IMG/VR virus record: IMGVR_UViG_3300042350_004191
Span: 146,587-210,586 of that record
DNA length: 64,000 bases
Source: a virus
Reading direction: 5' to 3' (one strand)
Under the pieces are notes generated by a model. It was not told where the DNA came from. It was given only the letters and a program-made list of their open reading frames with translations, and ran no database searches. The position numbers and the translations under genes are program-made. Numbering within the stretch: the stretch's first letter is position 1; the number at the start of each line of letters is the position of its first letter. Shown here one piece after another: positions 11,231 through 60,916 of this stretch.

Positions 11231-11969
11231 AATATGTTTTGAAAAGGATTTTTTAGTTAAAATACTTAAAACAATCAATAGATTGTGTGATAGTTGTGTT
11301 CTTAAAATAGAGAACAATCGAATATATTCAGTTACATCATCAAGTGACAATGTAATTGTACTGTATATTAATGGTGAATTAGTAGAAAATACTAATTTTA
11401 CTGGTAAAATCAATATCATTGATATTAAAAGATTTTTGTGTGGCTTGGATTGTTTAGATAGTCAAAAAATTGAAATACAATTTAATGATAACTATATTAA
11501 ATGTGTAACAAAAGATAGTAATGATCCAACTCATGTAAAATATCATCTTGTTGATGATAGTGTAATGAGCAAATCTACTTTTAATATTAAGAAAATAACA
11601 CAACTAACGTTTGATACAGAATTTTCTATACCTTTAAGTGTCCAGAAAAAAATTATAACAGCTTACTCTTTCTCTGCTGACTGTCAGAAGGTTTATTTAA
11701 AGGAAAGTGAAGGTAGTATTTACGCAGAAATTAATGATCTAACTCAACACAATAAAGATAGTGTAGAGTTAAAAATTACAGATGAATACAAAGGAGATTT
11801 AATAAAGCAACCAATTCCTATAAACATTGAAATATTCAAAAATTTGATGTACACAAAAAATAGCAATATACAAGTAAAAATAAATAACGAATATAAAGTA
11901 TTAATTTTTAATGTAAAAGAAGATGATACAATAGACGTAAAATATATCATATCAGCACTTGTTAAATAA
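11223..11969 (+). CDS. 45: sliding clamp (gp45-like)
   Basis: 248 residues with the repeated beta-alpha-beta pattern of PCNA/gp45 clamps. There are two similar halves, an interdomain segment around residue 115-135, and a second half beginning FDTEFSIPLSVQKKIITAYS. T4 gp45 has 228 residues. It would form the trimeric ring that tethers the polymerase and, in T4, also activates late transcription through gp33/gp55. Sequence identity to T4 is low. The call rests on fold pattern, length and replisome context. Confidence 0.72.
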   Translation: MDKICFEKDFLVKILKTINRLCDSCVLKIENNRIYSVTSSSDNVIVLYINGELVENTNFTGKINIIDIKRFLCGLDCLDSQKIEIQFNDNYIKCVTKDSNDPTHVKYHLVDDSVMSKSTFNIKKITQLTFDTEFSIPLSVQKKIITAYSFSADCQKVYLKESEGSIYAEINDLTQHNKDSVELKITDEYKGDLIKQPIPINIEIFKNLMYTKNSNIQVKINNEYKVLIFNVKEDDTIDVKYIISALVK

Positions 11970-44407: not shown

Positions 44408-45343
44408 ATGAAAAACAAAGCATTATCATATGATGAGGTATATCTAGTTCCGCAATATTCGGAATTAGAAACACGAAAAGAAGCAAACACAAGTATTACA
44501 TTAGGTAAACATACGTTTAAACTACCAGTATTTCCATCAAACATGAAAACTGTTATTGATGAAAAGTGGTCTGAACAGTTTTCCTATAATGGCTATTTTT
44601 ATGCTATGCATAGATTCGATAGTGTGACAGTACCTTTTGTTCAAAAAGCTAACGAAAAAGACTTTAAGGTTATTAGTATTAGCACTGGTGTAAATGACGA
44701 TTCTTATCAAGAATTGTTAGACATTTATTACAAAAACTGGAGAGTAGATTATATCACAATTGACGTAGCTCATGGACATCATTTGAAAGTAAAAAATAGA
44801 ATTGAAGAAATTAGAAAATTATTTCCTAATGTTTTTATTATTGCTGGAAATGTAACCACACCAGAAGGTGTTGAGTTTTTAGAGGCATCTGGTGCAGATG
44901 CTACACGGATCGGTATAGGACCCGGTAAAGCCTGTACGACCAAATACCAAACAGGCTTTCATGTTCCGATGTTCAGTGCATTATTGGAATGCTCACAGGT
45001 AGCCAAAAAGCCAATGATTGCTGATGGTGGTGTAAACTATTATGGAGACGTAGCCAAAGCATTAACTGCTGGAGCAAGTCTTGTAATGGCTGGATCTATG
45101 TTTGCATCATGTTCAGATTCTCCAGCACCTACAATTAACGGAAGAAAGATATATTATGGTTCAGCTAGTTCACACAATAAAGGACATAACAATCATATTG
45201 AAGGAACTTTATTAGAATTAGAAACTCAAATTTCTTTGGAAGAAAGAATTAAAGAAATTACTCAAGCATTGCAAAGTTCAATTAGCTATGCTGGAGGTAA
45301 AGACTTGTCTTGTTTTCAAGGAATAAAATATGTTACAATTTAA
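44408..45343 (+). CDS. guaC: GMP reductase (IMPDH/GMPR family)
   Basis: 311 residues, a TIM barrel without the CBS domains found in most IMP dehydrogenases. YDEVYLVPQYSE at the N terminus and the catalytic loop RIGIGPGKACTTKYQTGF (about 167-184, Cys 176) are family hallmarks. The loop and the short length favour GMP reductase, which deaminates GMP to IMP with NADPH. Further evidence is GGVNYYGDVAKAL near 205. Together with the adenylosuccinate synthetase at 58 kb it forms a G-to-A conversion route. IMP dehydrogenase remains a less likely alternative. Confidence 0.85.
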   Translation: MKNKALSYDEVYLVPQYSELETRKEANTSITLGKHTFKLPVFPSNMKTVIDEKWSEQFSYNGYFYAMHRFDSVTVPFVQKANEKDFKVISISTGVNDDSYQELLDIYYKNWRVDYITIDVAHGHHLKVKNRIEEIRKLFPNVFIIAGNVTTPEGVEFLEASGADATRIGIGPGKACTTKYQTGFHVPMFSALLECSQVAKKPMIADGGVNYYGDVAKALTAGASLVMAGSMFASCSDSPAPTINGRKIYYGSASSHNKGHNNHIEGTLLELETQISLEERIKEITQALQSSISYAGGKDLSCFQGIKYVTI

Positions 45344-45384
45344 CTTGAGATTTTTAAAAATTTCAGGATAAATCATTAATATAG

Positions 45385-45742
45385 ATCTTTGACAAAAAAA
45401 ATCACGATTCGGTAGCAGTTCATTACCGAATCAGGATAACAATCTTTTCTTGTTGGTGCGTTGGGAAAGTTATCCGAGCTAGGGGAGCCAAGCTGCGTTA
45501 AGCTATGATCCTATGCATTGATACAACACAAGATATGGACGAAGTTGTGTTCTGCGTATCGCGGAGCCTTCGTTGAGTGATAGGACAAATTCTAGGATAA
45601 AACCTATCAAAACCAACATTTGGGTTAATTCTGTAAATGGAGCCGACATGAGTATAAGGGTGATCTTAAGCAGTCTTATATCTCCACATACGAGTGGTTG
45701 GAATTAGTCCTGAATCGTCGCGGGTAAACGATTCAATTTTTT
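45385..45742 (+). ncRNA. unidentified structured RNA upstream of tRNA-Ser
   Basis: About 360 bases without a plausible gene, markedly more GC-rich than the flanks. Clear helices include GATTCGGTA/TACCGAATC (45406-45432), GGATAAC/GTTATCC (45434-45475), TCCTAT/ATAGGA (45509-45585) enclosing GATAC/GTATC (45520-45560) and AACAC/GTGTT (45525-45551), and TATAAG/CTTATA inside TGGAG/CTCCA near 45637-45685. It ends in an intrinsic terminator one base before tRNA-Ser. A promoter-like TTGAGA/GATAAA pair lies at 45345-45372. I could not match it to tmRNA, RNase P RNA or a group I intron. Confidence 0.58.
45711..45742 (+). terminator. Rho-independent terminator of the structured RNA
   Basis: Stem TGAATCGT/ACGATTCA with a 9-base loop, followed by ATTTTTT. 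Confidence 0.75.
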
Positions 45743-45743
45743 A

Positions 45744-45828
45744 GGAAGCGTACTCAAGCGGCTTAAGAGAACTGTCTACTAAACAGTCGAACAGAAATGT
45801 TCCGTGAGTTCGAATCTCACCGCTTCCG
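45744..45828 (+). tRNA. tRNA-Ser, apparent anticodon ACU
   Basis: 85 bases with a 7-bp acceptor (GGAAGCG/CGCTTCC), D-arm with GG, anticodon stem ACTGT/ACAGT, a long class II variable arm (GAACA-GAAA-TGTTC), T-loop TTCGAAT and discriminator G, all as in serine tRNAs. The loop CTACTAA gives anticodon ACU at 45778-45780 in place of the usual GCU. CCA is not encoded. Confidence 0.88.
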
Positions 45829-45875: not shown

Positions 45876-46094
45876 GTGAAAAAATACGCAATTAATATTA
45901 AATTCAAAAATCGTAATTTTAAATTAAATATTCTACCAAAAGGACATGATTCTTTTGATTTAGAAATGGAAGTTAAAGGAGTTTTAACAGGTCAAGATTT
46001 TCAAGAACTAAGAAAGTATCTTATTGATGAAGGTTATGTTGATGCAGCGAAAAGTTGGATTAAAGGTGAGAGCTATTTAGCTGAAGAATTATAG
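45876..46094 (+). CDS. hypothetical protein, 72 aa
   Basis: Not recognised. A small alpha/beta protein (basic N-terminal strands, then an acidic helix, LRKYLIDEGYVDAAKSW). The GTG at 45876 is chosen over a TTG 15 bases upstream because the promoter -10 box overlaps that TTG. It lies between two tRNA genes; its stop is just before tRNA-Asp. Confidence 0.62.
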   Translation: MKKYAINIKFKNRNFKLNILPKGHDSFDLEMEVKGVLTGQDFQELRKYLIDEGYVDAAKSWIKGESYLAEEL

Positions 46095-51468: not shown

Positions 51469-51540
51469 AGCCCCTGTAGAGATTTGCGCTCTACTCTCCC
51501 GATTACAAATCGGGTGCATCGCTATCTATGCTTCAAGGGC
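51469..51540 (-). tRNA. tRNA-Thr (UGU) with unusual T-loop
   Basis: 72 bases; acceptor GCCCTTG/CAGGGGC with one G-U pair, anticodon stem CCCGA/TCGGG with loop TTTGTAA (UGU). The T-arm stem TAGAG/CTCTA encloses CGCAAAT where TTCRAAT is expected. Confidence 0.82.
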
Positions 51541-60113: not shown

Positions 60114-60834
60114 ATTAAATTTTCGGCTGTTTTTATCCGCCATCATTTTCTTATCCAGAATCAAGCGGGACTCCCTATCTTTTCAGACGAGTCAACTGAC
60201 GCACACCGTATGCGAGTCATGGCAACTATCCCCCTTATTGCTGTAACGAACAGCTTCTATTCATCAGTGGGTTCTGACTAGAATCTCGTTAGGATTCTCG
60301 GATTAATTATGAGACGGAAGATCGTGAGGAAGTGGCACTTTAGGCTATGTGCCTAACGCCGAACCAACAGCCGAAGCACCGCATCTTCACCCTTTCGGTT
60401 AACACGGTTTGTATTTCTACAACGTCTCAAAAATTGGTGTTTTTGTCGCAAACGGGACCAGACTGATGATTAAGTTGCGCCTTAATCGGCTGGCTTCTGG
60501 TTGGCAATATGCCAACATCAGAAAAACACAGAACCCTTATACAAGGGTTTTAGGTACTATCGACCTTTGGCTTTTTCCTTACCCAGAACCTACACTCTTC
60601 TTTTTTGACTCTCATTAGTAGTCTTATTCACTGTGGAACTCTATATGTCTGCCAGAACACGGACACGTATCCGTTACATAGAGAGGTAGAGTTGCATACC
60701 TTTTTATAAACCAATCCATTTATTACAGAGTTGTTAATTGGTTAGATCTTTCTCTGACCTGACGGGTTTCTCGGCAGGGTTTGTTTGATGTCGGCTAATC
60801 ACCCCGACACCAAAGATTAAAATTTTCAAAGAAC
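60114..60834 (-). ncRNA. large structured RNA (GOLLD/ROOL-like candidate)
   Basis: About 720 bases with no credible gene, far richer in G and C than any neighbour. It is preceded by a consensus promoter and runs into tRNA-Asn. Many strong helices are visible: TGTCGG/CCGACA (60789-60809), AACCCTT/AAGGGTT (60532-60549), GATTAAG/CTTAATC (60468-60487), TTGGC/GCCAA (60501-60515), and CTCTATATGT/ACATAGAG enclosing CGGA/TCCG near 60640-60685. Size, ornate folding, phage location and tRNA adjacency match the GOLLD and ROOL classes. The exact class needs a covariance search. Confidence 0.7.
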
Positions 60835-60840
60835 TAATAT

Positions 60841-60868
60841 ATCTTATCAGAAACTGAAAAAGAGTCAA
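60841..60868 (-). promoter_or_regulatory. promoter of the large structured RNA
   Basis: TTGACT, 16-base spacer, TAAGAT; predicted start near 60834. Confidence 0.65.
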
Positions 60869-60916
60869 TAAATATTATCGGTGAAATATTATTTTTTAGC
60901 TTTTTTCTTTTGGTAT

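Follow-up and report, generated by a model that had tools for sequence, protein, structure and literature searches.

The 400-nucleotide gap between a metabolic gene and a tRNA gene in a T4-like phage raises the question of what is retained there: a structured RNA of a new class ending in a terminator, as the initial annotation proposed, or something else. The DNA analysed (the window) is a 64 kb stretch that forms the end of a 210,586-base record and carries T4-type genes, namely a T4-type terminase, a family B DNA polymerase, a RecA-family recombinase and a tail sheath gene. Positions 45344–45743 run from the stop of a gene resembling IMPDH/GMP reductase to tRNA-Ser (ACU), which begins at 45744. 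The description of this stretch as gene-free, GC-enriched and structured is borne out: it contains no open reading frame of at least 60 amino acids, its GC content is 0.40–0.44 compared with 0.25–0.32 for most of the intervals around it, and its fold beats 100 of 100 dinucleotide shuffles (z = −3.46). The locus is laid out as follows.

44408–45343, + strand: upstream IMPDH/GMP-reductase-like gene (PF00478, E = 1.9e-54)
45405–45619, + strand: element I, a multi-pseudoknotted structured RNA of ~215 nt (R2 match 228.5 bits; 15 distinct homologues)
45622–45734, + strand: element II, a second separable RNA of about 105–125 nt (R1 match 98.8 bits; 11 distinct homologues)
45744–45828, + strand: tRNA-Ser (ACU), a neighbour outside both RNAs
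45876–46094, + strand: 72-aa open reading frame, family unknown, close to one or other element in the initial set of four phages; no match in Pfam or PHROG

Two separable RNAs and their homologues

Known RNA families do not account for the stretch. Neither at the gathering score nor in a permissive scan did Rfam 15 match positions 45344–45743, and even permissive scans yield just tRNA and antisense-of-tRNA noise. The novelty suggested by the initial annotation therefore stands, as does its statement that the RNA is not a tmRNA, an RNase P RNA or a group I intron, given that permissive scanning of the window and the homologues returned no Rfam family. For tmRNA (RF00023), the window gave no match at either threshold and ARAGORN found none; a true tmRNA is encoded elsewhere in record G009. 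RNase P RNA, group I introns and the other Rfam 15 families are matched by neither element, in the window or in the homologues, and two permissive-scan matches, to the ALIL pseudoknot (E = 1.1) and Pedo-repair (E = 5.9), were rejected. Elsewhere in the window, the Rfam model finds a tRNA at 51469–51540 (− strand) that ARAGORN misses, and similar unusual tRNAs occur in the arrays of relatives.

Homologues were found among uncultured phages. A blastn search of 50,697 phage records with the stretch and its divergent homologues gave no match, a related-locus search with the upstream IMPDH-like protein as query returned nothing, and nothing was found by one exact-pattern scan for the core motif of element I across 84,980 bacterial and archaeal genomes. 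We fetched 80 related IMG/VR loci via the terminase and searched the larger records whole with the RNA sequence, which recovered G036 (78% identity), the 5′ part only in G011 (75%) and the 3′ part only in G009. These partial matches show that the region splits. Both sets then grew through scans for sequence patterns, a search by neighbouring gene and a pair of covariance models (R1, element II; R2, element I); R2 was built from seven sequences, with two of the helices described below (J and C) deliberately left out. R2 matched G045–G048 at 159–170 bits and G026 at 89.5 bits, and later L172, L183, L184, L185 and L242 at 125–157 bits; beyond its building set, R1 matched G042, G052, G050 and G053. 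A weak R1 match in G002 (20.4 bits) and pattern matches in L109, L118, L120 and L121, none with tRNAs around it, were attributed to chance. In all, the tRNA arrays of T4-like IMG/VR phages yielded 15 distinct copies of element I and 11 of element II.

The two elements are distributed as separate units. Four records carry element I with no match to element II (G011, G026, G051 and the fragment G043). In L122, L123, L125, L126 and L185, element II is flanked by tRNA-His and tRNA-Ala and has the size of a gene, and in G044 a deletion extending into the following open reading frame cuts it short. G009 carries both, ~830 nt apart, and the fused arrangement is common to the window, L103 and L112. 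Element I is present in nearly all records that have element II, the exception (G049) being a 75-kb fragment. The stretch almost certainly comprises two separate RNAs of conserved structure that accompany the tRNA arrays of phages. The novelty and the conserved structure of the proposed RNA class are thus upheld, and its unity is not, as there are two RNAs.

Further observations concern neighbouring or partial structures. An AT-rich 10-bp hairpin at 45344–45367, directly after the stop of the upstream gene and 5′ of element I, has no counterpart in the upstream 60 nt of relatives. In L172, a second, partial element I (3′ part only, 11602–11801) lies downstream of the full copy, beside an assembly gap of N. 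A much longer gene-free structured region sits beside tRNA-Asn at 60114–60880 (− strand); it is 75–91% identical in DNA sequence in G011, G036, G042 and G044, has no noteworthy Rfam match, and is probably another new phage RNA. R1 and R2 each match just one place in the window, in agreement with the initial view that the stretch before tRNA-Ser is not a copy of the RNA at 60 kb.

Conserved folds

The homologue search in metagenomes and the covariation analysis that had been suggested were both carried out, and both elements show changes on the two sides of predicted pairs. The alignment of element I (A9) holds 15 distinct sequences, of which the other 14 are 57–86% identical to the window copy. 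Its helices, and the loop discussed below, are as follows.

45406–45412/45426–45432, + strand: helix A, 5′ hairpin, GATTCGG/CCGAATC; 99% paired, 4 of 7 pairs changed on both sides
45415–45419/45492–45496, + strand: helix L, loop–loop tertiary contact of the loop of A (GCAGT) with the loop of K (GCTGC); 97% paired (n = 15)
45434–45440/45469–45475, + strand: helix B, GGATAAC/GTTATCC, crossing J and C; 90.5% paired, 6 of 7 pairs changed on both sides
45448–45453/45528–45533, + strand: helix J, pseudoknot, TCTTGT/ACAAGA; complementary in 15 of 15, four pairs with double-sided changes
45454–45457/45612–45615, + strand: helix C, pseudoknot closing the domain, TGGT/ACCA, alternating with TAGT/ACTA; complementary in 15 of 15
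45480–45483/45510–45513, + strand: helix K, TAGG/CCTA; complementary in 15 of 15, all four pairs changed on both sides
45551–45556/45560–45565, + strand: helix D, hairpin, TCTGCG/CGCGGA; 98.8% of scored cells paired and 6 of 6 pairs with double-sided changes, in an alignment that is imperfect here in five sequences
45579–45584/45603–45608, + strand: helix G, hairpin, GATAGG/CCTATC; 97.8% paired, 6 of 6 pairs with double-sided changes
45589–45598, + strand: apical loop of G, ATTCTAGGAT in the window, self-complementary over 10 nt allowing G-U; candidate kissing-dimer site

The alignment contains 45 pairs in these eight helices, and 97.6% of 665 cells are paired. Double-sided changes affect 33 of the 45 pairs, compared with 16.8 in shuffles and 9–12 when partners are slid; the fit of A9 drew on A, B, K, D and G, whose counts lean towards the model, and J, C and L are free of this bias, the model used for fitting holding most, not all, of the helices counted. 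In C and in the loops, pairs that never vary carry no covariation information. J and C, absent from the search model, pair in every new R2 match, and in the distant G026 helix J reads GCTCAT/ATGAGC. Helix K occurs in eight versions, all complementary (TAGG, TGGA, TGGG, TAGT, TAGA, CGGA, CGGT and TAAC). A scan for covarying columns supports the contact between loops A and K: GCAGN/NCTGC is replaced by GTAGN/NCTAC, and L112 has a private compensatory version, GCAGG/CCTGC. Helices B, J and C mutually cross. As read from these comparisons, element I is a compact multi-pseudoknot RNA with an unusual crossing-helix topology.

Comparison with relatives also separates the helices that had been named at the outset. 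The 5′ hairpin, initially given as 9 bp, is real and conserved and corresponds to helix A. The nested domain formed by TCCTAT/ATAGGA, GATAC/GTATC and AACAC/GTGTT did not survive, with 60, 49 and 52% paired across the 15 homologues, nor did the TGGAG/CTCCA domain, which is 38% paired across 11. A helix enclosing D ('E', ACGAAG/CTTCGT) was also set aside, being only 51% paired on the alignment; its ACG/CGT core, which seems present by eye, is almost invariant and remains a candidate.

The apical loop of G suggests that element I associates with itself. Among 13 distinct G loops, 11 contain a Watson–Crick palindrome of at least 6 nt (TCTAGA, TCCGGA, CCTAGG, TGCGCA or longer), and the remaining two, those of the window and of L145, become self-complementary once G-U pairs are allowed. 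Shuffled loops give a mean of 1.9, and none of 20,000 sets reaches 11, a test that overstates independence because the loops are related. A short intramolecular stem fits only some of the loops, which makes a kissing homodimer the better reading, and we consider it likely that element I dimerises through this loop.

Element II is smaller, and its features are listed here.

45622–45632/45700–45710, + strand: helix H, GGGTTAATTCT/GGAATTAGTCC; several pairs are broken in L112 and L185
45637–45649, + strand: inner hairpin ATG-GAGCCGA-CAT within H, beside a variable arm; the GAGCCGA loop is nearly invariant
45712–45734, + strand: hairpin I, GAATCGT-CGCGGGTAA-ACGATTC; 4 of 7 stem pairs covary
45737–45742, + strand: T run after hairpin I; T content is variable among homologues

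Helices H, h1 and I pair across the homologues. In the alignment of 11 sequences (A11), 93.5% of cells are paired and 11 of 21 pairs show double-sided changes, compared with 5.5 in shuffles and 1–7 when partners are slid; like A9, A11 was fitted to a model that holds most, not all, of the helices counted. The apical sequence of hairpin I, GTCGCGGGTAAAC (loop CGCGGGUAA, GUCGCGGGUAAAC), is invariant in 11 of 11 sequences. Hairpin I is the structure that had been taken for an intrinsic terminator ending just before tRNA-Ser. Its conserved loop, and the tRNA genes that lie on both sides of element II elsewhere, do not suit a plain terminator; the stem covaries and the T run varies, and to call it a terminator is mistaken or, at most, a secondary reading.

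Genomic setting, expression and possible roles

Almost every homologue of element I is found within or close to a cluster of tRNA genes, and the genes 3′ of the elements vary between phages (tRNA-Ser, tRNA-Pro and various open reading frames). This variation favours action in trans over cis regulation, and both elements probably act in trans, on the evidence of gene order. In seven records (L103, L104, L112, L114, L119, L145 and L183), a sigma70-like promoter ends 4–8 nt 5′ of helix A; it consists of TTGACA (CTGACA in L183) and a −10-like hexamer 16–18 nt apart, and individually 0–24 of 500 shuffles are as good. Such a promoter is absent at L108, L146, L148, L172 and L185, where element I follows other tRNA-array sequence. 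The window copy also lacks the promoter seen in close relatives, which makes read-through from the upstream gene possible, and element I may rely on it here. Among the other genes of these loci are tmRNAs in L105 (5495–5953, − strand) and L125 (676–1135, + strand), one with the predicted tag ADEELLLAA, and, upstream of element I in L103 (2277–2492) and L104 (3051–3275), a small basic open reading frame that by eye resembles ribosomal protein S21.

A clue to function comes from a neighbour. In five relatives (G053, G045, G050, G009 and G052), element I is followed directly on its 3′ side by an abiF-like motif (RF03085), with scores of 36.1, 35.3, 35.1 and 30.7 bits (E = 5.6e-7 to 3.8e-5 per record; gathering score 37) and weak matches in G009 and G052 (19.9 and 13.6 bits). 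In G050 the motif recurs behind a partial element I. On the fetched loci, these orphan motifs are placed at L148 (1727–1762), L172 (11161–11196 and 11887–11922) and L185 (1406–1441). An Abi_2 toxin gene was not found among the 15 records searched, the motif is absent from the window's phage record, and elements I and II themselves match neither the abiF model nor any known Rfam type III antitoxin. The abiF RNA is the antitoxin of AbiF, and an abiF-motif RNA neutralises the AbiF toxin in Clostridioides difficile (PMC12373285); an abiF sRNA has been annotated in cyanophage S-CREM1 (PMC9964418). The orphan abiF-like RNAs are candidate RNA antitoxin mimics. A conserved stretch, GCGTGATAACAAAACCGGTACA ... 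GGGACGCCTTCGGTTT ... ACAAAAACACGCC, is found beside the abiF-like motif downstream of element I in L108, L148, L184 and L185 and also follows the partial copy in L172; it is possibly one more RNA.

There are precedents for phage RNAs that act against host defences. The lytic phage PhiTE can evade the type III toxin ToxN by means of an RNA mimic, pseudo-ToxI (PMC3475682), and phage tRNAs have been proposed as counter-measures against host tRNases (PMC10264068). Together with the abiF-like neighbour, these precedents favour a decoy or antitoxin-like role for elements I and II, a counter-defence function that we put forward tentatively and by analogy, the clue being one of guilt by association from a subclade other than that of the window's phage. 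Under our preferred reading, the two elements would be independent genes of T4-like phages for noncoding RNAs that act in trans, adjacent to each other and ahead of a tRNA gene. Both RNAs would be excised from tRNA-array transcripts, or element I would be initiated at its own promoter where one is present, and both would then accumulate as stable RNAs. As decoys or antitoxin-like RNAs, they would bind a host defence protein, for example a toxin that cleaves RNA or tRNA, and weaken its action, as pseudo-ToxI does with ToxN; this is the weakest step. We assign this reading as a whole a probability of about 0.4. Its bolder extension seems doubtful: that element I founds a class of kissing-loop-dimerising multi-pseudoknot RNAs which, with element II and the abiF-like RNAs, make up counter-defence banks against RNA-cleaving toxins within tRNA arrays.

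Other roles have to be weighed against counter-defence. The RNAs could aid phage translation or tRNA biogenesis by binding ribosomes, tRNAs or processing enzymes, as the position of element I in or near tRNA clusters, the tmRNA in the same array in two of the phages and the binding of ribosomes by GOLLD, a tRNA-island RNA, in pull-downs (PMC12286853) would suggest; however, Rfam detects no likeness to tRNA, tmRNA, RNase P or other translation RNAs, and counter-defence RNAs could also be expected in tRNA arrays (PMC10264068). We regard this role as rather unlikely. Less probable still is an RNA-only scaffold in which a homodimer or oligomer of element I is the working form, for sequestration, packaging or a cage, as for OLE, ROOL and GOLLD. 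The self-complementarity of the G loop is kept by compensatory change, the tertiary contacts (L, B, J and C) are dense, and these three RNAs are homo-oligomeric, with ROOL and GOLLD found in phages near tRNA islands (PMC12286853). Yet element I, at ~215 nt, falls far short of GOLLD and ROOL in size, and the single self-complementary loop found suffices for a dimer, not for a closed cage.

Two further explanations relate the elements to the tRNA genes themselves. As cis-acting parts of the tRNA operon, they would be processing spacers, attenuators or terminators before tRNA genes. In several genomes the 3′ ends of both elements are close to tRNA genes, and hairpin I has a T run behind it in the window and in some of its relatives. 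We nevertheless judge this improbable: the downstream genes vary, element I is far from the next tRNA in L145 and L183, element II lies between close same-strand tRNA genes and is presumably transcribed through, and a large pseudoknotted fold with invariant loops exceeds the needs of a spacer. Alternatively, the elements could be orthologues of rnaC (species 1) and rnaD (species 2), two small stable RNAs encoded at a similar site in the T4 tRNA cluster (70908–71171). This is very improbable and, as homology, largely refuted, as neither R1 nor R2 gives a candidate match on T4 (NC_000866) and rnaC has a tRNA-like 3′ arm that elements I and II lack.

Relation to known phage RNAs

Noncoding RNAs of phage tRNA arrays have been known since T4 species 1 and 2, and almost none has a function; the roles of rnaC and rnaD are unknown (PMC3014915). 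Elements I and II resemble this pair as two small RNAs at the tRNA cluster of a T4-type phage, and differ from it in fold, with no similarity in sequence or by model. With GOLLD and ROOL (PMC12286853) they share a place in or near phage tRNA arrays, pseudoknots and self-association, which is predicted here. The differences are size (215 and 110 nt compared with several hundred), helices and the lack of an Rfam match; GOLLD, ROOL and OLE were rejected as identities on covariance-model match and size.

Comparison with antitoxin RNAs is of a different kind. The abiF-like motif lies directly 3′ of element I in relatives; unlike abiF RNA, the phage motif is a separate neighbour that scores below the gathering threshold and comes without a toxin gene. 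Pseudo-ToxI provides the precedent of a lytic phage RNA that serves as an antitoxin mimic. It copies short ToxI-type repeats, whereas neither element I nor element II is built of repeats. In some relatives, the orphan abiF-like RNA next to element I offers a concrete hypothesis, antitoxin mimicry, for RNAs kept among phage tRNAs, and the crossing topology and self-complementary loop of element I lead to clear structural predictions. Elements I and II are thus two new families of a known kind, the RNAs of phage tRNA arrays, with defined conserved structures in many uncultured T4-like phages in which current annotation does not see them.
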